A DNA stretch of 64,000 bases from the NCBI GenBank assembly GCA_947381965.1, contig CANCXX010000009.1:48413-112412 (forward strand). The letters run 5' to 3'. Position numbers and translations under genes: made by a program. The stretch's first letter is position 1, and each line of letters starts with the position of its first letter. The notes beneath the pieces are model-generated. The model saw only the letters and a program-made list of their open reading frames with translations, was not told where the DNA came from and did not search any database. Below are positions 26,752 through 43,266 of the stretch, piece after piece. The DNA comes from an uncultured bacterium (lineage in GTDB: Bacteria > Bacillota > Clostridia > Lachnospirales > Lachnospiraceae).

Positions 26752-27825
26752 TTACATACAGGTTTCCATCTGCAGGTCGTCTGCACAGTTTTTCCTGCTC
26801 CAGGCAACATTACGGCGGGTTATCCTTGCAGGGCTGCCACATACAATGCAATTCCCAGGCACAGGCCCTTTTACAAGACTTTCCGCCCCCACAATGCTTC
26901 CATCTTCTATTCTGCTTCCATATAAAATAACAGCTCCAAGTCCAATCCAGACATGCTTTCCAATATAAATATTTCTCTGCCTGCATATCTCTTCTGTAGA
27001 ATTAATATTCTTTCCTGTTGTCAAATCAAATATGGTATGACAGTCATTTGAGTATATTTTAATATCATGGGAAAGCATACAATCTTCCCCTATACTCACT
27101 TTTGACCATTCACATATATCAATGCAGCAGCCAAACCATGTTGTAGTCTTATCCCCAATTTCAAAACATGCCCAGGGCTTTATATACATGTATTTTATAC
27201 TTCTTAAAAGGCAGCCTTCTCCAATGCTTACCTTTGCATTCCGGCCAATTTCTATCCCTGTCTGGAACGACATTCTGGTATTTGCACCAATTTCAAGAAC
27301 CCCATTGCTTCGTACATATATCTTGCTGCTGCCCCCCCCCAATCGCTGAAAGTTCTCATGTACGATTACTGTTGCATGAAACCCCGGAAAGACAATTTGC
27401 AGCCCCTTTAAATCCCCTATCACTTTATTGCCGTGCGAATCTTCATAGTAGTCTTTTCTCTGCTCCAAAATGCACTCTGTAAAGTAATAATAATCTTTAT
27501 CTTTCTCAAAGCCATTTTTAGAAAGAGTTTCTGATATCTCCAGATAAAATGCAAGTGGAATGACAATATAATACTCATTTTTATCCCCATTATCAAAAAA
27601 ATCTGATACAGAATATACCCCATCGCCTGACTGGGATTTATTGCTGTCTATATATCCATATACAGCAATTTGATACACATTTTCTAAAACATTTGCAATT
27701 CTGTCTGAAATTCCATATTTCCCCCATAAAACAATCCTGCGTCCATTATAATATCTGCAGGTGTTTTTTATTATATCGCAAACCCAGTCCTCTTCAAGCG
27801 CTTCCAGCTGCTTATCCTTTTCCAT
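26752..27825 (-). CDS. Hexapeptide-repeat acyltransferase with N-terminal Rossmann-like domain
   Basis: A 357-residue protein. Residues 1-135 look like the small nucleotide- or sugar-binding domain seen in glycan-modifying enzymes (RRIVLWGKYGISDRIANVL). From about 165 a left-handed beta-helix acetyltransferase follows with repeated [LIV]GxxxxI turns, ending IVCGSPARITR. It probably O- or N-acylates a sugar of the surface glycan. Codons 163-165 are encoded by a run of nine Gs (27332-27340), a slippage-prone tract early in the gene. It is last in the operon, 16 bp after aepY, and is followed by a strong terminator. Confidence 0.85.
   Translation of the reverse strand: MEKDKQLEALEEDWVCDIIKNTCRYYNGRRIVLWGKYGISDRIANVLENVYQIAVYGYIDSNKSQSGDGVYSVSDFFDNGDKNEYYIVIPLAFYLEISETLSKNGFEKDKDYYYFTECILEQRKDYYEDSHGNKVIGDLKGLQIVFPGFHATVIVHENFQRLGGGSSKIYVRSNGVLEIGANTRMSFQTGIEIGRNAKVSIGEGCLLRSIKYMYIKPWACFEIGDKTTTWFGCCIDICEWSKVSIGEDCMLSHDIKIYSNDCHTIFDLTTGKNINSTEEICRQRNIYIGKHVWIGLGAVILYGSRIEDGSIVGAESLVKGPVPGNCIVCGSPARITRRNVAWSRKNCADDLQMETCM
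27332..27340 (-). repeat. Homopolymer tract G9 inside the acyltransferase gene
   Basis: Nine consecutive Cs on the plus strand read as G9 in the coding strand (Leu-Gly-Gly-Gly, residues 162-165). The gene is in frame with nine; one added or lost base would truncate it before the beta-helix. It is a candidate contingency locus. Confidence 0.9.
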
Positions 27826-27841
27826 ATTCCCTGTCCTTTTC

Positions 27842-28969
27842 CTAAATTTCCTCTGATTTTAAATAATCCATAAATCTCTTTTTGTTTTCCTGTGTGCCAA
27901 TTGTTGGACGTCCCAGGTTCCTCCTAGCTCCCATTGCACATTTAACTTCAAGAAAACATGGACCTTTTTGCATCTTGATCCTGTTAAGCTCCCGGTCCAG
28001 CTGTTCAAATGTATCTGCTCTTGCAGCATACAAATACCCACACGCCCTTGCAGCCAGAACCAGGTCTGTTGTTTTGGCCGCTGTAGGCATTCCTCCTACA
28101 GTTTCATGAGATTCATTGTTAATCACAATATGTATCAGATTATCCGGCGAGGTACTGCCAATAACAGCCATGGAGCCCATGTGCATCAAAACCGCTCCAT
28201 CCCCGTCAATACACCAGATTCGCGCTGCCTGCTTTTGTAGGGCAATACCAAGAGCAATAGAAGAACTGTGTCCCATAGATCCTACCGTCAGAAAATCTTT
28301 GTCATGACCGGTTCCCATTTGCTCCCTGATTTCATACAGCTCACGACTTGCCTTTCCGGTTGTGGAAACAATGGGGTCCTTTCCCGATACCGACACAATA
28401 TGCCGGATAATATCCTCACGGACCATCTGGTAACCATTTTTGTAATGTACTTCTTCCTTATATATAAGAGCATCCTTACATATTATAAATGCCGCCTGTC
28501 CGCCCATGTCAAAAACATGACGGAATTTTTTCATAGCTTCTTCCACTTCCTGTCTGCCGGAATCCCTGCGGATAATAAATGTCTCTATTCCCAGGTCATC
28601 CAAAAGCTTACCTGTAATCTTTCCCTGATAAATATGCTGGGGTTCATCATAAACGCCTGGTTCTCCCCGCCACCCAACAATGAATAGCATAGGAACTGCA
28701 TATACCTCCGGGTGCAGCAGCGAAGCTGCAGGATTTATCATATTTCCTTCTCCTGAATTTTGCATATATACAACAGGCACTCTTCCGGATGCAAGGTAAT
28801 ACCCCGCCCCAATCGCTGTACAGTTTCCTTCATTTGCAGCAATTACATGATGCGCCGGATTGGTGCCATACTTTTTTATCAGATAATCGCATAGGGGCCG
28901 CAGCAGAGAATCCGGAACCCCTGTATAAAAATCCAAATTCACTATCCGTATCAATTCTTCTATTTCCAT
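27842..28969 (-). CDS. aepY: Phosphonopyruvate decarboxylase
   Basis: Thiamine diphosphate enzyme that decarboxylates phosphonopyruvate to phosphonoacetaldehyde and so drives the unfavourable PEP mutase step. The N-terminal domain has FYTGVPDSLL and the TPP-activating Glu in AANEGNCTAIGAGYYL. The C-terminal domain carries the TPP/Mg motif GDGAVLMHMGSM with Asn-Asn about 25 residues on (IHIVINNESHETVGGMP). I chose the ATG at 28967-28969 with GGAG six bases upstream (375 aa); an ATG four codons earlier is possible. It lies 31 bp after aepX. Confidence 0.92.
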   Translation of the reverse strand: MEIEELIRIVNLDFYTGVPDSLLRPLCDYLIKKYGTNPAHHVIAANEGNCTAIGAGYYLASGRVPVVYMQNSGEGNMINPAASLLHPEVYAVPMLFIVGWRGEPGVYDEPQHIYQGKITGKLLDDLGIETFIIRRDSGRQEVEEAMKKFRHVFDMGGQAAFIICKDALIYKEEVHYKNGYQMVREDIIRHIVSVSGKDPIVSTTGKASRELYEIREQMGTGHDKDFLTVGSMGHSSSIALGIALQKQAARIWCIDGDGAVLMHMGSMAVIGSTSPDNLIHIVINNESHETVGGMPTAAKTTDLVLAARACGYLYAARADTFEQLDRELNRIKMQKGPCFLEVKCAMGARRNLGRPTIGTQENKKRFMDYLKSEEI

Positions 28970-29000
28970 TTTAGTCTCCATTTCACCTGTATGCAGATAT

Positions 29001-30296
29001 TTACAGTTCATCTATCAGCGTGATTATCTGCTTAATAGGCATAAGCCGCGGCTCCGCTTCCAGCGCCCGATGATACTTAAGCAGATCCTTTGCTGTGTTT
29101 TCCATAGCAGGAATAGCGCTTCTGGTAAGCTGGTTTGCATAAATCACCACATTTACACCATGGGCAGCCAAATCCATTTCAAATACCTGGTGAAAAGAGG
29201 TAGGAACAACAACAATTGGTGTATTCTTATCCTTTTTCCGAAATTCGTCGCAAAATCCGAAAATCTCCGCCGGGTCCTTTTTTCTGCTGTGGATCATGAT
29301 CCCGTCTGCCCCCGCCTCCACATATGCAAACGCCCGCATCAATGCGTCCTCCATTCCCTGTTCCAATATCAGACTTTCTATCCTTGCAATAATCATAAAA
29401 TCAGCTGTCAGTTGTACCTTTTTTCCTGCTTTTATTTTTCCGCAAAAATGTTCAATGTCATCCTGCGTCTGCTCCACTTCCGTTCCAAACAGCGAATTTT
29501 TCTTCAAACCGATTTTATCTTCAATTATGACGGCAGAAACCCCCATTCGCTCCAGTGTGCGTACCGTATAGACAAAATGCTCTGTAAGCCCACCTGTATC
29601 GCCGTCAAAAATAATTGGTTTGGTGGTTACTTCCATCACTTCATCAATGGTTTTGTACCGGGAAGTCATATCAACCAACTCCATGTCCGGCTTTCCCTTT
29701 ACTGTTGAATCACACAGGGAGCTTATCCACATAGCATCAAACTGCTCAAGATTATTCCCTGTCTCCACGATTGTCTTTTCCGCTATCAATCCTGTAATTC
29801 CACTATGTACTTCCAATGTCTTTACTATCGGACACATTTTCAGAAGCTGCCTTAACCTTTTCCTTCTGCATTCCGGCATAGACAGTTTTTCTCTCTGCAT
29901 CCTTTCCATACGCAGTGCATTTTCACTATTTGTATAAGCTACTTCTATCAGCTCTCCCTTTGACTTTTGCATAAGGCTTTCTGCATTATCCCGAAGGAAA
30001 CGCAAAGGCCCCTCTTTCCAGTTGTCACCATGAATAATGTAATTGGGGTGAAGCTGTTCCACAATTTCATCATAGGTGACTTTCTTTTGTACAACTACTC
30101 TGCTTACCCCTTCAATTTTCTCAACCATTGCAACCCGTTCCCTGAAGCTTACAGCTGGAAATCTGTTAAACCTTATCATGGCCTCGTCAGTAAGAACACC
30201 TACAATAACTTCTCCATATTTTCTGCCCTGGCGAATAATGTTCAGATGCCCTTCATGAATGATATCTGTACAAAAACATGTATAAACTGTTTTCAT
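29001..30296 (-). CDS. aepX: Phosphoenolpyruvate mutase with N-terminal cytidylyltransferase-like domain
   Basis: Makes the C-P bond by rearranging PEP to phosphonopyruvate. Residues 1-135 are a TagD/ECT-like nucleotidyltransferase domain with the HxGH motif (HEGHLNIIRQG). Residues about 150-431 are the isocitrate-lyase-superfamily mutase: ISSLCDSTVKGKPD, FDGDTGG, and the diagnostic EDK-x5-NS motif (IEDKIGLKKNSLFG) that separates mutases from lyases. The two-domain form is known for AepX. One base separates it from the preceding gene. Together with aepY it commits PEP to phosphonoacetaldehyde. Confidence 0.94.
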   Translation of the reverse strand: MKTVYTCFCTDIIHEGHLNIIRQGRKYGEVIVGVLTDEAMIRFNRFPAVSFRERVAMVEKIEGVSRVVVQKKVTYDEIVEQLHPNYIIHGDNWKEGPLRFLRDNAESLMQKSKGELIEVAYTNSENALRMERMQREKLSMPECRRKRLRQLLKMCPIVKTLEVHSGITGLIAEKTIVETGNNLEQFDAMWISSLCDSTVKGKPDMELVDMTSRYKTIDEVMEVTTKPIIFDGDTGGLTEHFVYTVRTLERMGVSAVIIEDKIGLKKNSLFGTEVEQTQDDIEHFCGKIKAGKKVQLTADFMIIARIESLILEQGMEDALMRAFAYVEAGADGIMIHSRKKDPAEIFGFCDEFRKKDKNTPIVVVPTSFHQVFEMDLAAHGVNVVIYANQLTRSAIPAMENTAKDLLKYHRALEAEPRLMPIKQIITLIDEL

Positions 30297-30297
30297 T

Positions 30298-31497
30298 TTA
30301 ACTTACATCCTCCATACCACCATCTCCCTGAATGTTTTTCTCTATCACTTCTTCTGTCAAAAACTGCGCTGCGGATTCAATTTCAGAAAAGGGGACCTCT
30401 TTCATCAGGGTAACGCCAAATGCTGTTTTTACCTTCCGGCAAAGTTCATCTGTATAAAAAAGAGTTCCTCCCTTTATGTTTTCGATGCCGTCCAAATACA
30501 TGGACTCCCTGTTTTTATCCCGCATCTTTTCCATTGGGAAAACACTTTCATCAATATAGGCCCGGACAATTTCCCCTCTTCCATCAAGAATAACCGGGTA
30601 TCCACCCAATTCTCCAAAAGCGCCCGGACTATGAACCTTAACCTTCTTCCTGTCTCTTACCGCCTGTAAAATTGCGTTTATAAGCTGATAGTTGCTGGAA
30701 GCATTCATCATATTCCTCTTAGCATCCACAGGCATTGGAATGTTACACATTGAAAAAATCCTATCCATATCCGGGTCCAGTATTTTATTCTGATATTTAA
30801 TTGCTATCAACTGTTCTGTCTTTTCTGTATGCCCTTCTTTACTGATAACCACATCATGAAAATGACCGGAGGCAAAGGTAACGTCAATGTTCCAGTAATC
30901 ATTGATTCCATACCAGCCTGCAACTGCAAACTGGACTCTCGGAATCAAGTGATTTACATTTCCACTGCCAAAATCCGGATATGCCCTTCCTGATGATTTC
31001 AGCCAGGGAATTACCGCATCTGAATAGGAAGTATTAATTACAATAGCATGAGCGTCTGCCTGTTCATACGCTTCCATAATATTTTTAGTGTATTTAACTG
31101 CCAAAGGCGCCCAAATTCCGTACGCCCGAATTTTATTCCATGAAATACTGCCATATTTTAACCCGGCATAAGCCCGGCTGCTGTTTACGATGATATCAGG
31201 CTGACACATTTTAAGACATTGTGCAATTCTGTCAACTGAATTAAAGTCAACATCCGACTCTATGTAAACCTGACTCCGGTTCTGTCCCCTGATTTGTGAG
31301 GCTATACGGGCAATATTCACATCTGTTGTCATATGCTCTTTGTTTCGTCCCACTACATAAAAAGTTAACCTTTCGTCCTGCATCGACATCAGATAGTTTA
31401 GCAGATAATTTCCCACACTTCCAAGCCCCAGGATCATTACACGGATCTGCCCCTCTCTATCTCTCAATTCATTTATTCTCTCTTCAAGTATCCTCAT
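30298..31497 (-). CDS. NAD(P)-binding dehydrogenase-like protein of the glycan operon
   Basis: A 399-residue protein with an N-terminal Rossmann fold (VMILGLGSVGNYLLNYL) and a long C-terminal domain. It superficially resembles saccharopine or short-chain dehydrogenase-like reductases. It starts at an ATG six bases after AGGAGGATAAAT-type spacing; an ATG seven codons earlier is less likely. The substrate is unknown. Lying immediately before aepX, it could act on phosphonoacetaldehyde or on a sugar nucleotide; that is inference only. No aminotransferase motif or PLP lysine context is evident. Confidence 0.65.
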   Translation of the reverse strand: MRILEERINELRDREGQIRVMILGLGSVGNYLLNYLMSMQDERLTFYVVGRNKEHMTTDVNIARIASQIRGQNRSQVYIESDVDFNSVDRIAQCLKMCQPDIIVNSSRAYAGLKYGSISWNKIRAYGIWAPLAVKYTKNIMEAYEQADAHAIVINTSYSDAVIPWLKSSGRAYPDFGSGNVNHLIPRVQFAVAGWYGINDYWNIDVTFASGHFHDVVISKEGHTEKTEQLIAIKYQNKILDPDMDRIFSMCNIPMPVDAKRNMMNASSNYQLINAILQAVRDRKKVKVHSPGAFGELGGYPVILDGRGEIVRAYIDESVFPMEKMRDKNRESMYLDGIENIKGGTLFYTDELCRKVKTAFGVTLMKEVPFSEIESAAQFLTEEVIEKNIQGDGGMEDVS

Positions 31498-31577
31498 ATT
31501 TATCCTCCTGCCTGTCATTTCGTAGTATTAGTAAAAAACGCAGCAAGGCTGTGGGTAATTGACCCTGGCGGCGTTCA

Positions 31578-32345
31578 TCAAAGGGACGCTTCGCACCCGC
31601 CTGACCCATTGCTTGCGGAAATAAAATCTGTCAGTGTATTGCAGTTTACCCATTTTTTGAACTGAAAATGTTTATATTCATTTCCTGCAAGAGCTGTAAA
31701 GTATTTTTGTATAATAATAAGATTTGTACCCTGCATTTCTTCTTGCGATAGGTTTTCTAAAATATCTGTAAGAATCTTTCTCCTGGTAAACTTCCATATC
31801 TGCCCGGAGTTGAAAATAGCAGTAAAAGGCTCCTTAATTGAAAGCGCTCTATGTTTTGTGTCATAAATATAGTGGATTTTTCCTTTTACATCAAAATAAA
31901 ATACAACCGCATGTTCTGCGCAGATAGTTTCCCTGTTTGAAGTTACCACATCGCTTTCCGCCTCACATACCTGCCGGAACGTCTCCTTATCAACCCAAAG
32001 ATCCCCTTCGCAAAAAACCAGACTGCTAAAAGGAAATCCCCCTGCTTTTTTCATTCCAAGATACAAACTGTAGCCGGAGCCGTAATCTTCAAAATGTTCG
32101 TTTTTTATCAAAACGATCTTATCTTCCATATCTGCAAAATTCTGCCTTACAAATGCCTCAAGCTTCCCAAACAGAAATCCGCCTACAATAATGTACTTAT
32201 CAAAATCCGTATTTTGGTATATCATCCTAAATAGCAGCGCTTCCTTTGGTGAATTTTGATAATAAAGGCATTTAAGCGTATCTTTTCCCACAGATTCACT
32301 AAATCTCCTTGCCATACCCGCAACAGTAATAATCAGAATTTTCAT
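31578..32345 (-). CDS. LicC/PntC-like nucleotidyltransferase
   Basis: A sugar-nucleotidyltransferase-fold enzyme of 255 residues. It opens with MKILIITVAGMARRFSES (NTP-binding loop) and has a region resembling LicC: NEHFEDYGSGYSLYLGM followed by FCEGDLWVDKETF, where the Asp would bind Mg. LicC and its relative PntC make CDP-choline and CDP-aminoethylphosphonate, the donors used by LicD. This suggests activation of a phosphonate head group with CTP. The frame extends 83 codons into the upstream epimerase gene; AGGAG five bases before ATG fixes this start. An ATG six codons earlier is the alternative. Confidence 0.72.
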   Translation of the reverse strand: MKILIITVAGMARRFSESVGKDTLKCLYYQNSPKEALLFRMIYQNTDFDKYIIVGGFLFGKLEAFVRQNFADMEDKIVLIKNEHFEDYGSGYSLYLGMKKAGGFPFSSLVFCEGDLWVDKETFRQVCEAESDVVTSNRETICAEHAVVFYFDVKGKIHYIYDTKHRALSIKEPFTAIFNSGQIWKFTRRKILTDILENLSQEEMQGTNLIIIQKYFTALAGNEYKHFQFKKWVNCNTLTDFISASNGSGGCEASL

Positions 32346-32364
32346 AACCTTCTCCTGCAGCATC

Positions 32365-33357
32365 TCACCCCTCCAGCTCACGGATACACATTTCAATTCC
32401 TTCTGCCAGGGAAACTCTGGGCCGCCATCCTGTTCTATTTCTGATCTTATCTGTGTTAAGCATACGTCTTTCAGGGTCCGATTCCCTATATCCTTTAAAA
32501 ACCATTTGCGGCTTTTCAATCCCCATTTTTTTTGCACAAAACAATGTAAGATCAATAATAGAGATTTCTTCATCTGTCGCCACATTGTATACACTGCCGT
32601 CTAATGCGTCCGGACTATGGACCAGCGCCAGCACCGCCATGCAGCTGTCAATGTTATGGAGAAATGTGCGCTTATTTTTTCTGCTGTTTTCCAAAAGCTC
32701 CACACAGCCATTTTGTTTTAGCTGCATAAGTATATGTGGAATAATATGTTTAGGATATAACTCTTTTTTACTGTACACATTGGCAAAGCGTATAGAGCAT
32801 CCCTTTATTTTGTTGTTGATTACCGCATCCCGCATAAAAAACTCTGTCATCAGTTTTCCTGCCGCATAACTGGTTCTCTGACTGTGCTCTGCATTGGCAA
32901 GCAAAAGATAATCTTCTTCTGAAACACCCCCTTCCTTCCAGGAATTCATAGAATATACCTCTGAGGTTGAGCAGTTAATAAAAATATCCGCTCCAATTTC
33001 AATAGCCTGATCCAAAAAAAGACGCATCCCCATTACGTTTGTCTCAAACGTCCTGTCAATATGATAAAAATGCTCTGTATGTACAACTGCTGCACAGTTT
33101 ATATAAATAATTCTTTTAAATTCCTTTTTCATTGCCATTGCCTGGTTTTTAATCTGCGCCATCTGTCCTTTATTATTAATATCAAATTCATAAAAAGAGA
33201 AATGGTCATTATCCTCTATTTCTTTTAACGCCTCTTTGGACGAAGCAAAAAAATTATCAAAACCAATGACCCGGCTTCCCTTCCCCACCAGAGTTCCCGC
33301 AAGCTCACTTCCTGTCATTCCGGCAACGCCGCTTATTATATATAATTCCTCCATCAT
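32365..33357 (-). CDS. NAD-dependent epimerase/dehydratase (extended SDR)
   Basis: A 330-aa sugar-nucleotide-modifying enzyme. The nucleotide loop is GVAGMTGSELA, the active-site triad includes Ser/Thr in NCSTSEVYS and the Y-x3-K of TSYAAGKLMTE, and RFANVY and TFLHNIDSC are typical. It probably supplies a modified nucleotide sugar for the surface glycan; which one is unknown. Its ATG overlaps the stop of the phosphoesterase gene (ATATGATG). Confidence 0.88.
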   Translation of the reverse strand: MMEELYIISGVAGMTGSELAGTLVGKGSRVIGFDNFFASSKEALKEIEDNDHFSFYEFDINNKGQMAQIKNQAMAMKKEFKRIIYINCAAVVHTEHFYHIDRTFETNVMGMRLFLDQAIEIGADIFINCSTSEVYSMNSWKEGGVSEEDYLLLANAEHSQRTSYAAGKLMTEFFMRDAVINNKIKGCSIRFANVYSKKELYPKHIIPHILMQLKQNGCVELLENSRKNKRTFLHNIDSCMAVLALVHSPDALDGSVYNVATDEEISIIDLTLFCAKKMGIEKPQMVFKGYRESDPERRMLNTDKIRNRTGWRPRVSLAEGIEMCIRELEG

Positions 33358-34082
33358 ATTCCGTACTCCAGTCTGTTTTTGTAAAACGCATCTACCTTTG
33401 CTGAAAAGGCTTTCTGCTCTCTTCCAATATTATAACCGCATTTTATCATGACAAAATCTTCCTTATCCAAGTCCAACAATGCACATTGGGCCATAGGATT
33501 TAAATTCCGCGGCTGTCCCACGGAACCAGGATTTATAAAAACTGTTTTTTTTCTGTTTCTATGAAGTCCATCCTCTTTCGGATAATATTTTTCAAAAAAA
33601 TGAGGCAGATGTGTGTGACCGGAAAAAACATAGTCATATCTGCCATATTCCTCTAAATCATCCCAGGGAAAAATCCCTTTCCAGTATTCATCTTCAAGAC
33701 TTCCGTGCACAGCCAGACATTTTTTGCCGCATATATCAAACTCATATCTTCCTTTTCCAAGCATTTCCTGCATCAGATAACTTTTCGTATTCTCAGATAA
33801 TTGACTACGGGTATATCGTGCACACTGTTGTCCCCGCTCCGAAGAAAAATTTACATATTTTTCAAATACAATTGCCTCTTCATGATTTCCCCAGATATTA
33901 CATAAAACCGGATAGGACAGCTCTTTAATCAGTTCTATCGCTTCGTTGGAATGTGGTCCATAATCAATTAAATCCCCTAGCAGAACCATTCCCTGTATAT
34001 TCGTTATCTCTCCAAGCTGCCGTTTTAAAGCTGCCATCGCCTCCAAGTTTCCATGAACATCAGAAATAATTACTATTCTCAT
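33354..34082 (-). CDS. YfcE/MJ0936-type metallophosphoesterase
   Basis: A 242-residue phosphodiesterase-fold protein with all motifs: ISDVHGNLEA, LLGDLIDYGP, IWGNHE, LAVHGSLED, and FSGHTHLP. It starts at an ATG overlapping the stop of the propeller-like gene as ATGA, so translation is coupled; the frame's earlier GTG is rejected. In a glycan operon it may trim a phospho- or phosphono-diester intermediate or recycle a nucleotide donor. That role is inferred from location only. Confidence 0.85.
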   Translation of the reverse strand: MRIVIISDVHGNLEAMAALKRQLGEITNIQGMVLLGDLIDYGPHSNEAIELIKELSYPVLCNIWGNHEEAIVFEKYVNFSSERGQQCARYTRSQLSENTKSYLMQEMLGKGRYEFDICGKKCLAVHGSLEDEYWKGIFPWDDLEEYGRYDYVFSGHTHLPHFFEKYYPKEDGLHRNRKKTVFINPGSVGQPRNLNPMAQCALLDLDKEDFVMIKCGYNIGREQKAFSAKVDAFYKNRLEYGI

Positions 34083-35314
34083 TGTGTTTTCTGTTTCTCC
34101 TGCAGACACATTTCCTTACAGTACTCATAAATCCTTTTCCCTATAGGTTCTGCCTTTTTATTCTTTTCTTTCTCTTCCATCCCTGCCACTTCATCCAAAT
34201 AATCTTCCAGCACGTCCATCCATCCAAAAGATTCATTTAACTTTCCCGTATACAGCCTTTGCCTGATTACATTGCGGTAAAAACCTGAAAAATACATATT
34301 ATCCGCCTGGTTTAACTGCAGCGGCGTATAGCGGGTCCCTCCTGTACATCCATTTATGGTCAGAAGTCCGTTTCCACACCTGGGATATAAGAGAATTTCC
34401 TCTCCATTCTTTTCATATCCGCAAAACAAAGAATATATTTTACATCTTCCAAATCCATCAGGATATCTGATTTTTTCCACACTTCCTGTCAGTTTATTTA
34501 ATCTGAATATCCAATTGGAATGGCAGGGCAGAGCAAGACCATATTTTTCATTTATATCTATTCCCCTGATAAAAGGAGTCCGTTTTCCATAAACTTCCGT
34601 ATCACATGCAAAACGCTCTTTTATGCCCTCTTGCGGGTTCCACACATAAATCGCTTTTTCTTCAAGCGAAGTAAGATAAAAATCCTTCTCTCCGCATACA
34701 CTGATACCCTGTAGCTTTATCTTTCCCCCATCCATCCCTCTTTCCGTATTGGAAAAAACAAAAACAAGCTTCTTAGAGCTGCCGTCAATACAAAAAATTT
34801 TTGACCGACGGTATTCAGCCAGATAAAAAAGCTGTCCTTTCTGACACACACAGGCAATATCCAAAAGCATCCAGTTTTTATATCCGCCAATATACTCTCC
34901 AATTTTTTCTGTTAAATACGGAAGGCTCTCTACCTGACAGGACTCCGTATGAAATACAATAACTGGCCAGCGCACATAGCTTGGAAAAATCCATAATCCA
35001 TCCGCAGTAAAAAACGCATCGGCAACCTGAATCTCTTCACTTGATATCTCTACCAATTCCCAACGCTCCAGTTTTAAATCCCAAATATGAATATATCTTC
35101 CGCGAAAGGGAATGAAATACAGTTTTTCGCCAATATGAAACACCCTGCGGTGCAGCCGCCCTCTTTCCTTTTCTGCCTGCGGAAAAAAATCAATGATCTG
35201 CGCCTTTCCTGATACCATATTCCATTTCATAAAAGCATTATAATCATAATTGGAAAACCATAAATTCTCTCCAACCTGACAGGCATCCAAAAAAGTAATA
35301 CTGTTCAATTCCAT
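34079..35314 (-). CDS. Predicted beta-propeller-like protein of the glycan operon
   Basis: A 411-residue protein without a recognised family. It has a run of about 40-50-residue beta-rich units (GENLWFSNYDYN, GEKLYFIPFRGRY, ADGLWIFPSY, KGQLFYLAEY, EKDFYLTSLEEK, EKYGLALPCHSNW), which looks like a blade repeat as in Kelch or NHL propellers. The C-terminal 70 residues are helical and charged. No signal peptide is present, so it is cytoplasmic. AAGGAG lies just before ATG. It may bind or measure a glycan or protein partner; no catalytic motif is visible. Confidence 0.65.
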   Translation of the reverse strand: MELNSITFLDACQVGENLWFSNYDYNAFMKWNMVSGKAQIIDFFPQAEKERGRLHRRVFHIGEKLYFIPFRGRYIHIWDLKLERWELVEISSEEIQVADAFFTADGLWIFPSYVRWPVIVFHTESCQVESLPYLTEKIGEYIGGYKNWMLLDIACVCQKGQLFYLAEYRRSKIFCIDGSSKKLVFVFSNTERGMDGGKIKLQGISVCGEKDFYLTSLEEKAIYVWNPQEGIKERFACDTEVYGKRTPFIRGIDINEKYGLALPCHSNWIFRLNKLTGSVEKIRYPDGFGRCKIYSLFCGYEKNGEEILLYPRCGNGLLTINGCTGGTRYTPLQLNQADNMYFSGFYRNVIRQRLYTGKLNESFGWMDVLEDYLDEVAGMEEKEKNKKAEPIGKRIYEYCKEMCLQEKQKTQ

Positions 35315-35324
35315 TTTCTCCTTA

Positions 35325-36149
35325 TTATTCACCCGGAAACTTAACATAAACTGCTGTATGTTTTGGTTCCCTTTCACTTTCCGGCGGCAGCGTCATATAA
35401 TCCTTTCCATAATAGTATGCTAACATTTCCCCTGACCAAAGGGGCGCCCTTACCATAATTCCTTCAAACACCATATCACAGGTTTCCTCTAGCCACTTTC
35501 GCTCCTGACCTTTTGTCTCTTCTTTGGAGCCCCAGGCGTAGCATCTGACTTTTTTTGTCTTTCCTTTTCCATAACAATATGCTATTTTTTCAAGTCCATG
35601 ATATGCCCACTCTTTGGGCAGTAAATTCAAACACGAAAACCCCATCCTTTTTAACAGAGTATCTGCACTTTGGGCGCCGACTTCAGAATAAAGTATTTTC
35701 CGGCAACACAAAGAAAGAATGTTACAGTAAATACGCGGAATTACTTTTTCCGGTAAGCCGTCACATGGGAAAACATCAATAAAAATACCGGTTTTTGATT
35801 TTAGACATTCATGACCTTCCCGAATAAAAGTTGTATCATTCCTTAAAATTCTTGCATATCCCCAGCGGTATCCTTTGTCTGTCCGGTATGTCTGCAGAAA
35901 AAATTTCCCATCCAGCTGTTTCTCACAGATACCACAAAACTTATCATAATCCCTTCGCATCATTTTAATATCAATATCATCATCCCAGGGAATAAAGCCT
36001 TTATGCCGGATGGCTCCAAGAAGTGTTCCCGAATCAATAATATATGAAATATGGTTTTTCCGGCATATACGGTCCAGCTCGCACAATATCGAAAGCTCTA
36101 CCAGCTGCATTTTTCTGATATTTTCAGGTATGTACTCAAATCTTTCCAT
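35325..36149 (-). CDS. LicD-family phosphotransferase (copy 2)
   Basis: LicD proteins transfer phosphocholine or related phospho-bases from a CDP-carrier to glycan sugars. This 274-aa copy has the core LicD motif near residue 45 (GAIRHKGFIPWDDDIDI) and FIDVFPCDGLP. The ATG at 36147-36149 overlaps the upstream LicD gene by 14 nt. The two copies are paralogues arranged in tandem, with matching nucleotide blocks around 35992 and 36957. In this operon the donor could be a CDP-phosphonate made by the LicC-like enzyme (inference). Confidence 0.9.
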   Translation of the reverse strand: MERFEYIPENIRKMQLVELSILCELDRICRKNHISYIIDSGTLLGAIRHKGFIPWDDDIDIKMMRRDYDKFCGICEKQLDGKFFLQTYRTDKGYRWGYARILRNDTTFIREGHECLKSKTGIFIDVFPCDGLPEKVIPRIYCNILSLCCRKILYSEVGAQSADTLLKRMGFSCLNLLPKEWAYHGLEKIAYCYGKGKTKKVRCYAWGSKEETKGQERKWLEETCDMVFEGIMVRAPLWSGEMLAYYYGKDYMTLPPESEREPKHTAVYVKFPGE

Positions 36150-37131
36150 TGGTCTGCATCTTTTTCCTTTTCTCATCTTCTCTTAATAATTCTGCAGCAA
36201 GCTCTTCATATTGTCCCAGACTGTATGCGGATGCTTTTTGGTGCATGACCCTTTTTTCTTTTGGAGGAAGTTTCATATAGTTGTCAAAATTAAATCTAAG
36301 CCACTCATCATAATGTGCCGTAATCATTACTGTCATATCCTCAAACGGGGCATCCATGACTTCCGTGAAAAAGCACCTAAGCAGTCCTTCCTTTCTCTTT
36401 TCCTTTTCCTCGTCAGACAAAACATTCCAGTTTGCCTTTTTAAACCGCTTATACCGCTTGGGACCCAGCTCATATTTTTTCTTTTCCCCGTTCGCCATTA
36501 ATCCCCAGCATCTGACCATTTTAGTTTCTCTTCCAAAATTAAGCATTCTAATGAACGTCAGCAGCTTTAGCGCATCCTTTTTAGGTATTTTGGCCAGTCG
36601 GCGGAAAATTTTCCTGGCCCTCTCATCCTCGCTTTTTTCCGCACCTACTGGCGAATACATTGTTTTTCTGAGAAGATATGCACATTTTGACTGGATTTGA
36701 CCAATCATACGATTATTTAATTTCCCATCTCTGGGAAAAATATCAATAAAAATACCATTGTGACTTTTAATAGCCTCCTGCCCCGCCCTCACATAGGTTG
36801 TGCCATTTAATATAATCTTTCCATATATCCACCGGTATTCAGGATCCGTATCAACCGTCTGTACAAAATATTTTTCCTTATCCAGCTCCTGTTCACATAT
36901 TTTTAAAAACTTCTCATATTCCTTCCGCAACATGGTTATATCTATATCATCATCCCAGGGAATAAAGCCTTTGTGCCGGATGGCCCCCAACAGACTTCCT
37001 CCGCATAATGTATATTTAATGTCATGTTTTCTGCATATCCTATCGACATCCTTTAGTATTTCCAGTTGAAGCAGCTGTATTTTTCTTAATTCTGTCGCAT
37101 TAATCGGTATCACCTGCTCATTGCTTTTCAC
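36136..37131 (-). CDS. LicD-family phosphotransferase (copy 1)
   Basis: A 331-aa LicD protein with GGSLLGAIRHKGFIPWDD and FIDIFPRDGKLNN, the metal- and nucleotide-binding signatures of the family. The start is GTG, eight bases after AGGAGG, and its GTGA overlaps the stop of the TagD-Gfo/Idh gene. The C-terminal third is highly basic and Lys/Arg-rich (about 215-331), perhaps for membrane or acceptor contact. The tandem pair suggests that two acceptor sites or two phospho-groups are decorated. Confidence 0.92.
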   Translation of the reverse strand: MKSNEQVIPINATELRKIQLLQLEILKDVDRICRKHDIKYTLCGGSLLGAIRHKGFIPWDDDIDITMLRKEYEKFLKICEQELDKEKYFVQTVDTDPEYRWIYGKIILNGTTYVRAGQEAIKSHNGIFIDIFPRDGKLNNRMIGQIQSKCAYLLRKTMYSPVGAEKSEDERARKIFRRLAKIPKKDALKLLTFIRMLNFGRETKMVRCWGLMANGEKKKYELGPKRYKRFKKANWNVLSDEEKEKRKEGLLRCFFTEVMDAPFEDMTVMITAHYDEWLRFNFDNYMKLPPKEKRVMHQKASAYSLGQYEELAAELLREDEKRKKMQTNGKI

Positions 37132-38492
37132 AATACAATCCTCCTGACGAGATTATTTGATAAATCATTTCTGTATTTTTCCATAATTTCCGCAATGGCA
37201 ATGGAATCCTCCGCCTTCATTACGGAAGTATGCTTTTTCAGTCCATTTATCTGTGCAATAAAGGCTCCTATCTCATACCTTAACCCCTCTCCCTGATACT
37301 TAAAGAAAAATTCCTCATTTGCAGACCTGTCTTCATAGCAAAGTTTAAATTTTTTTGTCAGCCACCAAGGGGAATCTGCAATCAAATACCCGTTTGTTCC
37401 TGCTATAACCAGATTTCCTTCTGATTTAACCCCCAGACCTGTCTTGATAGAGGCAATTGATCTGTCATAATAAATACATGCCTTCGTGTATAAATCCACT
37501 CCATTTTTATCGCAGAAAGATGTAAATGATATATCCCGGTAATTTCTCCCCAAAAGCTTAATTACTGCCAGCAGCGGATAACTTCCCAATTCTGTAAAGC
37601 TTCCCCCGCTTTCCTGGGGAAGAAATTCCCTAAGATTATGGTCTTGCACAAGTTTGGTAAAACCTGCTTCCACTTCGCAAATTTTCCCTATGTTTCCGCT
37701 TTTGGCAGTTGAAATTAATTTGATAAAGCCTGGTGCATATGCTGTTTTTAGGGCTTCCATCAAAATCAGTTTTTTCTCTTTTGCCAAAGCAAAAGCCTCT
37801 TCCGCCTCCCTCTTTTTTAAAACCAGCGGTTTCTCACACAAAACATGTTTTCCATGATTTATAGCGTCCATAATGTATTCATAATGGGTATTATGAGGCG
37901 ATGCAATATAAACGGCATCCGAATGACGGAACAAAACCTCCCTGTCATCGGTATATATATTTAGCTGGTTTAGTTCTGTCAGCTTTCTTGCACTTTCTAA
38001 ATGAGGGTTATACACAATTTCTGCATTTACACCGCTTACATATTTCACCTCTGGTATAAACCTTCTTGCAATCCTTCCCGATCCAATAATCCCCAGCCGT
38101 ACAATACCAAAATTTCCATTTCGAAGCATTGTGCTTGAAATTCCTTTGGTTCTTTCCAGATATACCACCTTACAGTATTCTTTCAGATATTCAAACTTTC
38201 CAAGCCAGTCAGAACCAACTGTAAAAATATCCACATTATATTTCTGGATATCCTCTACCTTCTGTCCAACATGGTCTTCTATAATTATCTGATCAGCGAA
38301 TCCCGTCTGCTTTACATGTTCAATACGCTCCATCAGTGAATCTGCCACATTCAATTTTCCCCTGTATTCATCATACTGCTCTGTTGTTACGCCAACTATC
38401 AGGTAATCGCCCAGCGCTTTTGCCCTTTGGAGCAGCCGGTAGTGTCCTTCGTGAAACAAGTCATAGGAGCCATATGTAATTACCTTTACCAT
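37128..38492 (-). CDS. TagD-like cytidylyltransferase fused to Gfo/Idh/MocA oxidoreductase
   Basis: A bifunctional 454-aa protein. Residues 1-130 are a glycerol-3-phosphate cytidylyltransferase-like domain (TYGSYDLFHEGHYRLL, and RTKGISSTMLR near the end). Residues about 135-454 are a Gfo/Idh/MocA oxidoreductase (LGIIGSGRIARRFIPE, CEKPLVLKKREAEEAF). The first domain would make a CDP-polyol donor and the second would oxidise or reduce the polyol or sugar it carries. Its ATG overlaps the upstream stop by 7 nt. The ribosome-binding site is GGAGGAAGAGG. Confidence 0.88.
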   Translation of the reverse strand: MVKVITYGSYDLFHEGHYRLLQRAKALGDYLIVGVTTEQYDEYRGKLNVADSLMERIEHVKQTGFADQIIIEDHVGQKVEDIQKYNVDIFTVGSDWLGKFEYLKEYCKVVYLERTKGISSTMLRNGNFGIVRLGIIGSGRIARRFIPEVKYVSGVNAEIVYNPHLESARKLTELNQLNIYTDDREVLFRHSDAVYIASPHNTHYEYIMDAINHGKHVLCEKPLVLKKREAEEAFALAKEKKLILMEALKTAYAPGFIKLISTAKSGNIGKICEVEAGFTKLVQDHNLREFLPQESGGSFTELGSYPLLAVIKLLGRNYRDISFTSFCDKNGVDLYTKACIYYDRSIASIKTGLGVKSEGNLVIAGTNGYLIADSPWWLTKKFKLCYEDRSANEEFFFKYQGEGLRYEIGAFIAQINGLKKHTSVMKAEDSIAIAEIMEKYRNDLSNNLVRRIVL

Positions 38493-39841
38493 TCCTCTTC
38501 CTCCACGACATTCAAATTGTGTATCAATACTGGCTTTCCTGCTGCTACGTACAATGGTAATAAAGAACTGACAGAACCATAATAGGCATCGGAAAGCGCA
38601 ATCGCCCTTCCCAAATCCGGCGTATCATCATAAATTCCCCAACCTTCTCTTTTATACCTGTCAACAATGGACGTATATTCATCTGAAACATATGGATTCA
38701 TTGATTTAGCTGTTGCCATGGAAAGAGGATGCGGACGCCATAAAAGAATAATGTCATTCCTTCCTTTAAAATAATCCAGTGTTTTCTTTAATTTTGGTAT
38801 AAACTGTTTATAATTTGTCTGCATAAGAAGATTCAGATGTGTATTATACAAAACAACTCTTCCGTTATGTTTTTCTGCAAGTATCTTTTTCCACTCGTCT
38901 GGCACTTGCAACGTTTTCTTATCAACATTTTGCACTTTTTCAATTTTAGGAGATCCCAGCCCGACAATTTTATTTTTCCAATACTCCCTTGTATTTTCTC
39001 CTGCATATTTTGACAACACGTTTACATATATTTCTCTCATTGCTTCTGACTGAACAATTACTTTATCTGCATTTACCACACCAAACACTGTACAGAAATG
39101 CTCCATCCTTTTTACCTTTGCCGTTTCTTTGGGTGAGATTTCTTCACGAATAAAGTAAGGAACATAGACTAAATTTTCCGTATATCGCTTTAAACAGGAA
39201 GTGTAAAAAAAAGGATGTACGCTGGTCACATAATTGCCGTCGTCATAAGGGTTATGAATAAATATCATATCCGGCTGGCGGGCCTCAAAGTCATAAGCCC
39301 TGTATTCAGTTATAGGAACATAGTCAGGATAACAGCTCCCTTCGTAATGTTCCTGTCCAAGATTTCCATTGGGATCCTTATCAAAATAAGGAATAGGTAT
39401 TACATAGGCATCACAATCCGGATCTTCATTTGCCGCCATCCAAATACTCTCCAGAGAGTCCCACATAGATGCCTTATAGGGAAGAAATACTACCTCTATA
39501 TGAATTTTTATATCATTCTTTATACTGTTTTGTATTTGTATCAGTGATTTTTGTAATTTTTTATATACTTTACTTCCACTGACAGATCCTTCCCCTGCAA
39601 TTTCTTTATAACTTTGATAGACAAGTTCACAGTATTCCTCTAATATTGGGATTGTAACTACGCCTTCCCCCTCACTGCTTTCTATCAGATTTCCCAGATT
39701 TATGACACCCTCCTGACATTGTTTTAACAGCGCAAGGGCAGCGGATATTTCTTTTTTCTGGATATTTTTCCAAACTTCTCTATGCGCCTGTCCAAGCAGT
39801 CTGATAAAGTCTTCCGCCTGTTTTTTCTGCATTTTCCGCAT
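38486..39841 (-). CDS. CDP-glycerol glycerophosphotransferase-like protein, first operon gene
   Basis: A 451-residue protein with an N-terminal helical region (1-115) and a C-terminal glycosyltransferase-B-like half. The C-terminal half contains VVNADKVIVQSEAMRE, VVLYNTHLNLLMQ, LLWRPHPLS and SDAYYGSVSSLLPLYVAAGKPVLI, the last resembling the donor-binding end of TagF/TagB transferases. It probably adds a polyol-phosphate or related unit from a CDP-donor to the glycan. Confidence in the family is moderate. It is the first gene after the non-coding stretch 39842-40083, with AAGGG eight bases before ATG. Confidence 0.72.
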   Translation of the reverse strand: MRKMQKKQAEDFIRLLGQAHREVWKNIQKKEISAALALLKQCQEGVINLGNLIESSEGEGVVTIPILEEYCELVYQSYKEIAGEGSVSGSKVYKKLQKSLIQIQNSIKNDIKIHIEVVFLPYKASMWDSLESIWMAANEDPDCDAYVIPIPYFDKDPNGNLGQEHYEGSCYPDYVPITEYRAYDFEARQPDMIFIHNPYDDGNYVTSVHPFFYTSCLKRYTENLVYVPYFIREEISPKETAKVKRMEHFCTVFGVVNADKVIVQSEAMREIYVNVLSKYAGENTREYWKNKIVGLGSPKIEKVQNVDKKTLQVPDEWKKILAEKHNGRVVLYNTHLNLLMQTNYKQFIPKLKKTLDYFKGRNDIILLWRPHPLSMATAKSMNPYVSDEYTSIVDRYKREGWGIYDDTPDLGRAIALSDAYYGSVSSLLPLYVAAGKPVLIHNLNVVEEEEW

Positions 39842-40083
39842 AACGCCGACCCTTTCGTAATAAAATAAGGCACATTGGTCATCCGTAGATGATGCAGGTA
39901 TCCTGCTTCGCTCCCTGCTACTTCATACCTAACGATATGTTCACAGGGTCCTGGCATACCCAATACACAGACGCAAAATATGTCTGTCTTCTAATGCCGT
40001 ATCTTGTTTTTATATCATGAATATTTTTGTGATCCTTCCGGTAAAATACAGGTTACGCCCCTATTTATTCACAAAAATCATTC
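39842..40083 (-). ncRNA. Structured non-coding spacer, possible guide-RNA locus of the TnpB-like protein
   Basis: 242 bp without a credible gene between the TnpB-like gene and the glycan operon. On the minus strand several nested pairings are visible: TTTTTGTGA with TCACAAAAA, ACAGAC with GTCTGT inside GGCAT/ATGCC, AGGTAT with ATACCT, and GCAGG-ATA-CCTGC. TnpB guide (omega) RNAs are encoded at exactly this position, overlapping and following the 3' end of tnpB. No promoter, guide or target has been identified, so this is a hypothesis. A 79-aa open frame here is rejected. Confidence 0.35.
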
Positions 40084-41406
40084 CTATGATTTTAATTGTT
40101 CTTTTTCTCCACGTTTTCTGGCATTTCGGGCCGCATTCACTCTGTCCCGTTCCTGAAACCCACAGGCCGGACATAGAAAAAGGCCTTTTTTCTTTTGTCC
40201 CTCTTTGCCGCATTCACTGCACTCAATGCCAATGCCTTTTCCAAAAACCTCTACTATCGCCACAGAATGTTCCCTGCATTTAAGTAAAAATCTTTCCTTA
40301 ATATAACCTTTCTGCCATATAGCAACATGAAAATTTATTCTTTTTACTTTTCCTGCCCTGCCCCTTGCAGGCAGTTTAGGAAAATAAACTGTTTTCGGCT
40401 TCTCCGTCCTGAAAAAACGATTCAATTCTGCATTGATATAGGTATGCAGTCTTTCATCCATTTTTCTTTTCTGTTCTTCATATCTTTTTCTTCCTGGATT
40501 ATCATCTTTATTATTTCTGTAAATACGATTCTGTTCCTGTATCCATTCTGCCTGATGTCTGACATACTCCCCCATCTGTTCTCCATAAATGTTCCCACTG
40601 TCCGTGGTAAGCATGTCAAACATGCCAAAGGCAATTCCAACTTCATTTTGAAAATCACCATGTCTTTTCACCCGTATTTTAATAGGAACAAAAATTTCCA
40701 ATCTGCCGCTTTCTTTAAAAAGTCTGATAAAAAGCTGCCTGTCATACTGATTGGAATCTGTTAACGGAATGTAAATCCGCTTTCTTTTCTCTTTCACAGA
40801 TATATAAATTCCGTGATCCCCATAACGATATGCTCTTTCTGAAATAGAAAACCCGTCTGTTTCATCTGTATGAAGTTTTTTCAAATGTCTGCGCACTTGT
40901 CTTTTCAGGTAATTATCCAATCTGCGAATATCTACATCTGAAGCAGCTTCCTCATATTTTTTTTGCAGTGTATCAGGCAGTTTTAGCGGCTTATCATTAA
41001 GCACTGATTCGAAGCAGTTATTAACCTTTAGTATAAAGCGGAGATAATGTTTGTCTTTTGGAGTGAAGTTCTCATTTCTATGTACAGATTCCTGTACCAG
41101 CTTTTTTACTTTAGACCAATGGCTTTTAATGTCCCCTAAAGCATCATAAACCGCAAGATAAAAATATACGGAAGGCATATTCAGACTTTCCCTAAGGCCG
41201 CTTGCTGTCATCTCGTTCTGTACTGTATAACCGGGATAGAGTTTTTCAATACTTTTTATTCCTCCATACCTCTGATATACATAATTTTTTACTTTGCCAT
41301 AATCATCTGCAATCTCCAGAAGCTTACACATATCTTCCATCGAAACAGGTTCTTTATTATACTGACGAATCGTTTTACATATCGTGTTCCCTGACATAAT
41401 CCTCAT
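40084..41406 (-). CDS. TnpB-like RNA-guided protein, predicted nuclease-dead
   Basis: A 440-residue IS605 OrfB/TnpB-like protein. The C-terminal zinc ribbon is intact (Cys396/Cys399 and Cys412/Cys415) and the RuvC-III Asp remains (Asp421 in RDRVNAARN). Two catalytic acids are gone. RuvC-I reads VGIAFGMFD with Ala259 where GIDxG is expected. The RuvC-II strand reads TVYFPKLP with Pro343 where the usual Glu of IVxEDL would be. No TnpA or IS605 ends are visible. The start could be this ATG or the one at 41397, which has GAGG closer. Two palindromes lie upstream and the surface-glycan operon downstream, suggesting an exapted regulator. Confidence 0.78.
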   Translation of the reverse strand: MRIMSGNTICKTIRQYNKEPVSMEDMCKLLEIADDYGKVKNYVYQRYGGIKSIEKLYPGYTVQNEMTASGLRESLNMPSVYFYLAVYDALGDIKSHWSKVKKLVQESVHRNENFTPKDKHYLRFILKVNNCFESVLNDKPLKLPDTLQKKYEEAASDVDIRRLDNYLKRQVRRHLKKLHTDETDGFSISERAYRYGDHGIYISVKEKRKRIYIPLTDSNQYDRQLFIRLFKESGRLEIFVPIKIRVKRHGDFQNEVGIAFGMFDMLTTDSGNIYGEQMGEYVRHQAEWIQEQNRIYRNNKDDNPGRKRYEEQKRKMDERLHTYINAELNRFFRTEKPKTVYFPKLPARGRAGKVKRINFHVAIWQKGYIKERFLLKCREHSVAIVEVFGKGIGIECSECGKEGQKKKGLFLCPACGFQERDRVNAARNARKRGEKEQLKS

Positions 41407-41410
41407 GAAA

Positions 41411-41432
41411 CCGTAAAGTATACTTTTTGGTA
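41411..41432. promoter_or_regulatory. Imperfect palindrome, copy 1, at the TnpB-like start
   Basis: CCGTAAAGTA / TACTTTTTGG is a degenerate copy of the 24-bp palindrome at 41536-41559, sharing AAAGTATACTTTTTGGTA exactly. It ends 5 bp before the TnpB-like ATG, where bound protein would block transcription or translation start. Confidence 0.55.
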
Positions 41433-41479: not shown

Positions 41480-41508
41480 TTGATTTTTATGAAATTTTAT
41501 AGTATACT
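41480..41508 (+). promoter_or_regulatory. Putative plus-strand promoter between the two palindromes
   Basis: TTGATT (41480-41485) and TATACT (41503-41508) are exactly 17 bp apart on the plus strand, a good vegetative promoter. No plus-strand gene follows. The transcript would run into the palindrome at 41536, which is followed by TTTTTT and could terminate it after about 50 nt. Confidence 0.45.
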
Positions 41509-41535: not shown

Positions 41536-41559
41536 TACCAAAAAGTATACTTTTTGGTA
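41536..41559. promoter_or_regulatory. Perfect 24-bp palindrome upstream of the TnpB-like gene
   Basis: Left half TACCAAAAAGTA and right half TACTTTTTGGTA match perfectly. It is likely a dimeric-protein operator, or on the plus strand a small terminator hairpin with the TTTTTT that follows. A second, imperfect copy lies 125 bp away at 41411-41432. Confidence 0.6.
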
Positions 41560-42213: not shown

Positions 42214-43266
42214 CTAATCAATCATATTATATTCCTTGTATAACTGTTTTCTCGCTTTTTCATCAAAAATCTCATCCAATTCATCTAATCGGTTATCTCT
42301 TTTAAGATATCTAATTAATGTTGCCAGCAGGTTTTCTCCCTGCTGCATCCCTTGCTGCATTCCCTGCTGTATCCCCTGCTGCATCCCCTGCTGCATCCCC
42401 TGCTGCATTCCCTGCTGCATCCCCTGCTGCATCCCCTGCTGCATTCCCTGCTGCATTCCCTGCTGCATCCCTTTTTGCATTGCCTTCTGCATAATTGACT
42501 GCCCCAATCCATCCATATCGCTCACTCCTTTTAATACCTTTTCATTGCTTCTAATGTCTACATATTTTGCTATCTTTTCCTTATCACAATCAAATATCCC
42601 AGACAAATAATCAAATATTGGGACATCCGTCTTTTCGCCTCTGCGTATTACAATTACATTCATAAGGTCATAGTCTTCTTCTGGTTCATCCGTTGCACCT
42701 ACAATATCTGTTTTCTTTATAGAATACATGGATACCGTATTTTGCAGTTTCAGCGGAATTCTCTCATTGCATATCCAAATACTGTAGGCTTTCTGTATAT
42801 CTCCATAATTTGTCTGTTCCGTTAATCCACCAAGCTGATAGCTGATTTCTCTCGCCGCGTAATATATTCCTCTTTTTATTACCGGGTAAGAAGGGTCTGT
42901 TGGTCTGTAATTATTCTGAACTTCTAAATCAATATGTAAATGAATACAAAGATTTTCATTACTTAACATAGGATTCACAGCCTGAAAGTGCGTATCATAC
43001 ACAATCATCTTGTCGCTGACAGATTCCATTGCTGTTGGCATTCCCTTTATTCTGGCAGGAACATCCTCAACAGGAATATCCTGAATGCTGTCTGCATCTA
43101 TATAATGGATAATTTCCTCCACTGTAGAGTTTTTGTATTCTGGTACTACTTCCTTTAATACAGGCGCTATAATTTCTCTGTTATGAAATAATCGTTTGCA
43201 TGCTTTATCATATTTACTCCCGATAGATTCTGCTACAGCTATGTCTATTTCTGTTTCTGTTTTCAT
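42214..43266 (-). CDS. Rpn-family PD-(D/E)XK nuclease / transposase-like protein with QQGM repeats
   Basis: A 350-residue protein of the recombination-promoting-nuclease type common in Lachnospiraceae. The PD-(D/E)XK core shows SDKMIVYDTHFQ and HIDLEVQNNY, the latter with the usual E-x-Q. The C-terminal quarter carries a tandem Met-Gln-Gln-Gly repeat (about 11 units) followed by a charged helix. These genes are often multi-copy and annotated as transposases without terminal repeats. I see no inverted repeats or target duplication around it. Confidence 0.85.
   Translation of the reverse strand: MKTETEIDIAVAESIGSKYDKACKRLFHNREIIAPVLKEVVPEYKNSTVEEIIHYIDADSIQDIPVEDVPARIKGMPTAMESVSDKMIVYDTHFQAVNPMLSNENLCIHLHIDLEVQNNYRPTDPSYPVIKRGIYYAAREISYQLGGLTEQTNYGDIQKAYSIWICNERIPLKLQNTVSMYSIKKTDIVGATDEPEEDYDLMNVIVIRRGEKTDVPIFDYLSGIFDCDKEKIAKYVDIRSNEKVLKGVSDMDGLGQSIMQKAMQKGMQQGMQQGMQQGMQQGMQQGMQQGMQQGMQQGIQQGMQQGMQQGENLLATLIRYLKRDNRLDELDEIFDEKARKQLYKEYNMID
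42338..42478 (-). repeat. 12-bp coding tandem repeat (about 11 units)
   Basis: A near-perfect tandem array of a 12-bp unit (TCCCTGCTGCAT on the plus strand) encodes Met-Gln-Gln-Gly repeats in the Rpn-family gene. As a multiple of three, copy-number changes would alter length without a frameshift. Confidence 0.9.

Follow-up and report, generated by a model that had tools for sequence, protein, structure and literature searches.

A Nuclease-Dead TnpB and a Conserved Structured RNA at the Head of Surface-Glycan Operons in Lachnospiraceae: Proposed TldR-like Control

The Locus

The window analyzed here is a stretch of 64,000 nucleotides from an uncultured bacterium of the Lachnospiraceae (positions 48,413 to 112,412 of contig CANCXX010000009.1, assembly GCA_947381965.1), whose draft genome is 96.7% complete with 7.3% contamination. 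On its minus strand, at positions 40084-41406, lies an open reading frame (ORF) of 440 amino acids that is a genuine nuclease-dead TnpB. The gene stands ahead of a surface-glycan operon and is separated from it by a conserved structured RNA, and upstream of the gene is an inverted-repeat segment that carries a promoter (an inverton). In the preferred reading, protein and RNA form a complex that resembles the TnpB-derived repressors called TldR and controls phase-variable surface-glycan operons, probably through RNA-guided repression in trans. The features at the center of the locus are as follows, in window coordinates.

40084-41406, minus strand: nuclease-dead TnpB-like protein, 440 amino acids, first gene ahead of the glycan operon
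39864-40000, minus strand: conserved structured RNA of 137 nt, downstream of the TnpB-like gene and ahead of the operon, with pseudoknot ATTGG/CCAAT and 3' tail GTGCCTTATT
41410-41432, no strand: inverted-repeat site, proximal copy ACCGTAAAGTATACTTTTTGGTA
41537-41559, no strand: inverted-repeat site, distal copy ACCAAAAAGTATACTTTTTGGTA
41480-41508, plus strand: promoter of sigma-70-like type (TTGATT-17-TATACT), located between the inverted repeats and facing away from the operon

A TnpB Fold without Its Catalytic Acids

The AlphaFold2 model of the protein has the full TnpB fold (Foldseek, VIA-align), and residues 7-439 align to the active transposon TnpB structures 8h1j and 8exa. Unlike these active proteins, it has lost all three catalytic acids, and no transposase gene or element end was recognized beside the window gene, whose neighbors were not scanned one by one. 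At the C-terminus is a Cas12f1-like zinc ribbon (TNB type), which at 25.3 bits just misses the Pfam cut-off of 26.3. The NCBIfam scan gives a weak TnpB match far under its cut-off, and Pfam to an E-value of 1 gives the TNB domain and no NusG-type domain.

The first-pass annotation of this gene, made from the letters of the window, had described the ORF, a kept zinc ribbon, and the loss of the RuvC-I aspartate and RuvC-II glutamate, all of which hold; by alignment, the replacements are Ala259 and Lys344. Its reading of Asp421 as a retained RuvC-III acid is one residue off. When the protein is aligned with canonical TnpB and two intact-site relatives, which carry GIDKG, IVME, and DTNA at the three positions, the RuvC-III catalytic column falls on Arg422. 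The acids are thus replaced at RuvC-I, RuvC-II, and RuvC-III, and the whole catalytic triad of the window protein is lost.

The same is true of its relatives. The comparison covered 91 homologues, chiefly the 80 top scorers among 250; all 91 lack every catalytic acid at the three RuvC positions, and the RuvC-III column is Lys or Arg in 88 and Asp in none. No alignment that places catalytic acids elsewhere was seen. The zinc ribbon is without variation across the homologues compared, and nine close homologue pairs have dN/dS values of 0.04-0.16, which indicates purifying selection.

A Conserved Structured RNA between Protein Gene and Operon

The RNA is found at 89 of the 91 loci when a regular expression and a covariance model (R1, searched in 21 sources) are combined. 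The expression alone finds 84, and R1 recovers five of the seven others: two are cut by contig ends, one scores 87 bits, and those of G034 and L101 are weak at 25-31 bits. Loci L024 and L025 have the protein and no R1 match. Covariation was measured on 42 sequences, taken from the 45 of at most 165 nt among 83 extracted. Changes on both sides occur in 24 of the 38 pairs of the named structure. Pairing cells reach 96.7% in the structure against 83.4% in shuffled and 34-41% in slid alignments, the slid control somewhat favoring the structure because it was derived from the same alignment. Covariation is 0.416 against 0.161 in shuffles, none of 500 being equally high. The pseudoknot is supported chiefly by conservation; the alignment contains a single compensated pair, in L091, and in L100 a reading by eye gives the arms AGTTG/CAACT. 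The RNA is a well-supported structured family with strong covariation, and neither the window nor six loci gave it an Rfam gathering match.

In the window genome, R1 finds six RNAs, one at each of six TnpB-like loci. Genome G342 has three loci with inverton, RNA, and operon where the stretch read contains no TnpB-like gene, and one full copy of the gene elsewhere. Nucleotidyltransferase and NeuB-type clusters lie downstream at two of these protein-less loci; at the third, the matches to genes of glycan loci are weaker. At L150, L160, and L163, a recognizable RNA stands beside broken copies of the gene. Because the RNA occurs without the protein in G342 and the protein without the RNA at L024 and L025, the two are separable. 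The TnpB-like protein may, judging by this arrangement, act in trans.

An Upstream Segment of the Invertible Type

Inverted repeats were surveyed at the 83 of 91 loci with at least 200 nt upstream. A pair of the invertase-site type with a score of at least 12 is present at 60 of the 83, and controls gave 2/83 and 5/161. A stricter filter (distance 85-180 bp, short arms) leaves 55 loci, which with three from G342 make a set of 58 segments. The repeat centers are mostly 118-149 bp apart. Related segments are found in opposite orientations in L029/L043 (score 0.93 versus 0.12 the other way) and in G342b/G342c (0.71 versus 0.15). A regular expression for promoter-like pairs reads 34 of the 58 segments as facing away from the operon, 7 toward it, 4 both ways, and 13 as having none; the window locus is assembled in the OFF orientation, its promoter facing away. 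The upstream segment is predicted to be an invertible promoter and the operons to be phase-variable.

Recombinase genes are found directly upstream of some loci, as a tyrosine-recombinase cluster at 13 of 91 and a serine-recombinase cluster at 8 of 91, one member of each having been scanned by profile. All 13 tyrosine-recombinase loci fall among the 23 without an inverted-repeat pair. The scanned serine recombinase matches the Mpi-type invertases (E 8e-12) better than IS607 (7e-5), both far below cut-off. As a separate observation, the regions upstream of L027, L037, L069, and L077 hold unusually long inverted duplications (scores 83-135), some of which apparently span the 5' end of the gene.

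The Downstream Operon and Its Relatives

Downstream of the window gene are 12 ORFs on the same strand (26752-39841), as the first-pass annotation had it, with LicD, cytidylyltransferase, and phosphonate genes among them. The following could be described.

38486-39841, minus strand: F1, first gene of the glycan operon and commonest next gene in the family (47/85)
37128-38492, minus strand: cytidylyltransferase-like and GFO/IDH/MocA oxidoreductase
36136-37131, minus strand: LicD family
35325-36176, minus strand: LicD family
32365-33357, minus strand: NAD-dependent epimerase/dehydratase
29001-30296, minus strand: phosphoenolpyruvate mutase with cytidylyltransferase-like domain, phosphonate synthesis
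27842-29011, minus strand: thiamine-pyrophosphate enzyme, from its position a likely phosphonopyruvate decarboxylase
26752-27825, minus strand: hexapeptide-repeat protein, last of the 12 ORFs

With phosphoenolpyruvate mutase and a thiamine-pyrophosphate enzyme within 26752-30296, the glycan made here is probably decorated with phosphonate.

At 85 of the 91 loci, the next gene of at least 150 amino acids lies within the available sequence, and at each of these 85 it shares the strand of the TnpB-like gene, typically in an operon of glycan genes. Mobile homologues flanked by TnpA, which the first-pass annotation had named as contrary evidence, were not seen: the homologues stay at operon heads, and their neighbors were not all scanned for TnpA. 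For F1 itself, sequence comparison with Pfam, NCBIfam, and PDB gave no match. Among the other genes that come next or follow, the representatives scanned include those for DegT aminotransferase, NeuB, glycosyltransferase 2, nucleotidyltransferases, and an epimerase. Three of nine such representatives have no Pfam match, and two of these three form a membrane/secreted pair, the first member of which stands at the head of 13 operons. Given these Pfam-less genes and F1, the term glycan operon is an annotation for the window and the scanned members, extended to the remaining loci by gene clustering.

The window genome has eight copies of F1, four of which adjoin a TnpB-like gene. One lies about 17 kb downstream of the TnpB-like copy C8b on the same strand, another follows genes for a tyrosine recombinase and CsrA, and two more make up the eight. 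The CsrA homologue (PF02599, E 6e-10; locus L173, contig C25) lies between the recombinase and F1, in the slot filled elsewhere by the TnpB-like gene. A single CsrA query, compared by tblastn with the sequences of the 91 loci, gave no csrA match.

Elsewhere in the window, the protein encoded at 42214-43266 has a long MQQG repeat and weakly matches a PD-(D/E)XK transposase family. The Rfam gathering matches of the window are a T-box leader (55449-55694) and a tRNA (22040-22111), with no others.

Copies and Distribution of the Family

The nuclease-dead family is large and belongs to the Lachnospiraceae. The window genome has six copies of the gene, the other five being 53-60% identical to the query. 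The protein is present in 18 of 397 genomes of the family, and the R1 RNA in 17, all within those 18; G429 is the one genome with the protein and no R1 match. Its spread is patchy, with the family present in 4 of 37 genomes of the genus. Partial copies are 7 of 32 among the matches listed, and broken copies exist. A first viral scan with the single protein as query gave no relative, and a scan of IMG/VR with the alignment gave two, at 51% and 35% identity.

Two relatives, L183 (G796) and L184 (G638), are catalytically intact. They have flanking sequence in common both upstream and downstream and are possibly mobile elements. An IStron ancestry was suspected for them, and Rfam at an E-value of 0.01 gave no group I intron in either. 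The dead lineages G034, L101, and G397 group with these two active relatives (support 0.82, one FastTree run), so the catalytic acids may have been lost repeatedly in the family.

Proposed Mechanism and the Search for Guides

RNA-guided control is the preferred reading because the anatomy of the locus resembles a published system, the csrA-tldR loci (PMC13418256). Several features that mark a TldR were found together, namely a TnpB fold, lost acids with purifying selection, a downstream structured RNA, and a stable association with non-transposon genes. The proposal of the first-pass annotation that a dead TnpB is kept here for binding, in the manner of TldR and in linkage to glycan operons, is well supported by 91 homologues, selection, the partner RNA, and operon position. 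The annotation had not included the RuvC-III loss, the six paralogues, the conserved RNA, and the upstream invertible-promoter cassette. RNA binding, DNA binding, and repression, including RNA-guided repression of the window operon, are what we infer from these features.

In the proposed sequence of events, an inverton flips ON and the leader RNA would be transcribed together with the operon mRNA. It would then bind the TnpB-like protein made from its own or another locus, and the complex would bind the leader DNA of sister glycan operons without cutting it. Transcription of the sister operons would be lowered, and few coats would be made simultaneously. The pairing of the RTNYYTTATT tail of the RNA with a leader site is the weakest step of the proposal. 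Taken as one claim, a domesticated nuclease-dead TnpB, partnered with the RNA encoded just 3' of its gene and repressing sister operons in trans, is held tentatively, at slightly under an even chance. An extended form, a genome-wide one-coat switch, is unlikely as a whole. Here, each operon would carry a guide RNA in its leader that is made only with the inverton ON, and a shared dead TnpB would silence sister leaders with matching tags, the active operon being spared because its own tag differs.

The proposed guide is the last ~10 nt of the RNA (RTNYYTTATT) and the proposed target the leader site AGTWTAT-RTNYYTTATT. This conserved AT-rich site, AAGTWTATRTNYYTTATT, lies downstream of the RNA, in the leaders of C10, C8b, L024-L026, L028, L029, L034, L043, L047, L055, L081, L092, L093, L096, and others, and also precedes a small number of operons that have neither RNA nor TnpB gene. 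Across 16 genomes, the pattern occurs at 29 places and its reverse at 4. Eighteen of the 29 are within family leaders by position. Four (L299, L300, L287, L277) stand before glycan or operon-like genes, in stretches that hold neither a gene of the TnpB family nor a hit of the RNA model. The remaining places read are five inside F1 genes and one in an unrelated gene (L286), and the last, L288, is by position inside the F1 gene of L039.

Of 25 leader sites, 11 are identical to a tail tag carried by a different RNA within that genome. In the exploratory set, 10 of 20 sites matched (5.0 expected, P=0.003; within site genomes 6.3 expected, P=0.028). The pooled 11/25 gave P=0.010 over all genomes or 0.11 over site genomes. 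Adding five RNAs of site genomes that the regular expression missed and the model found changed these to 0.045 or 0.33, and removal of one of the five, a duplicate of L053, gave the final 0.037 or 0.30. A tag equal to its own leader site is found in 0 of 19 cases, where 3.3 are expected within genomes (P=0.009).

Several results weigh against the trans-repression reading. The final P=0.037 corresponds to 7.1 expected matches over all genomes (126 RNAs), and permutation within the 13 site genomes raises the expectation to 9.6 (P=0.30). The leader-site hypothesis was formed on the same data on which it was tested, and further genomes, where 52 RNAs were read from 58 model hits, contribute a single site, which has no match. 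Shuffling between genomes leaves the avoidance of own sites short of significance (1.7 expected, P=0.15), and with G-U wobble allowed, 5 of the 19 own pairs become compatible. The window RNA tail matches its own genome at chance level (6 matches including itself versus 5 in the control; with at most 2 mismatches, the self match only) and is separated by 22 nt from the start codon that follows. A leader site is absent from most F1-type operons. Most readable invertons are already OFF (34 away and 7 toward, of 58), so an extra silencer is not strictly required.

Other candidates for guide and target were rejected. An exact search with the variable stretch after CTTATT as guide gave nothing convincing in the loci read (4 of 80 named loci and 8 own or near ones). 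Against upstream regions, that stretch matches at 14 or more of 18 positions in 5.5% of 109 same-genome pairs versus 0.7% of 2243 other-genome pairs, and this excess was dismissed as support, the listed matches being AT-rich runs. The F1 codons for VY[IV]PYF, striking at first as a target, show no synonymous constraint and are not specially matched by the post-CTTATT part.

Alternative Explanations

The protein could act in cis on its own transcript, binding the nascent leader RNA and modifying RNA polymerase through antitermination or pause release, as a guide-free stand-in for UpxY or LoaP. The RNA heads operon leaders even where no TnpB gene adjoins, no convincing guide target was found, and CsrA, an RNA-binding regulator, holds the same slot in one sister operon. 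Locus-specific antiterminators such as UpxY occupy a comparable operon position. The RNA tail often has TTATTT after a hairpin, which we take to resemble the NusG pause motif. However, no U-tract terminator was seen by eye in the leaders inspected, no terminator scan having been made, and the entire TnpB fold with its zinc ribbon is retained. The nearest published relatives (PMC13418256) bind DNA via a guide. Control of this kind is considered somewhat unlikely.

RNA-guided negative feedback, in which the complex would occupy the leader or promoter DNA of the locus that encodes it, would suit a protein gene that lies within the operon to be regulated. TnpB-type guides adjoin the scaffold, and the 5/19 wobble-compatible own pairs are in its favor; exact identity of own tag and own site in 0/19 stands against it. 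This reading is quite improbable. The least credible explanation is a transposon relic in decay, carried along with glycan islands. TnpB ancestry, the patchy distribution (4/37), partial or broken copies (7/32 partial among the matches listed), and nearby recombinase genes would agree with it, but strong purifying selection already contradicts a relic. The invariant zinc ribbon, the covariation in the RNA, and the fixed operon position (85/85) likewise make it highly improbable.

Comparison with Known Systems

In Bacteroides fragilis, the NusG-type UpxY of the UpxY/UpxZ system is the first gene of phase-variable capsule operons. The TnpB-like gene would likewise be first in several phase-variable polysaccharide operons and order their expression, with a TnpB fold and a dedicated structured RNA in place of a NusG-type protein.

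The closest precedent for trans-repression by a TldR-like complex is the csrA-tldR flagellin loci of Oscillibacter and Flavonifractor, described in PMC13418256 as having hin, a ~120-bp inversion, a dead TnpB, a guide RNA, several loci per genome, and targets inside fliC. Both systems have a nuclease-dead TnpB, an RNA downstream of its gene, multiple copies per genome, and a promoter-bearing inverted-repeat segment upstream, where csrA-tldR has hin. They differ in that the cargo here is surface-glycan operons, with no CsrA match in 91 loci. The RNA here lies between protein gene and operon, also heads operons without a neighboring protein gene, and has only a putative guide role. The phage TldR of Enterobacter is likewise a domesticated dead TnpB, there a regulator of a surface structure, and guides as short as 6 nt suffice for its repression. 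The family here is, in contrast, on bacterial genome contigs, multi-copy, and tied to invertible promoters. A dead TnpB tied to glycan operons was not reported among the literature matches listed, the tables of the 2024 TldR paper being outside that search.

Implications for Surface Variation

Surface glycans govern the encounters of gut bacteria with phages, immune cells, and each other. The ordering of many phase-variable glycan operons within one cell is known for Bacteroides, and among the literature matches listed there was no comparable account for Lachnospiraceae. If true, the pairing of a domesticated TnpB with an RNA encoded in the leader would add an RNA-based layer over DNA inversion, parallel to the flagellin TldRs. 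The TnpB-like protein with its own RNA probably helps choose which sugar coat gets made.
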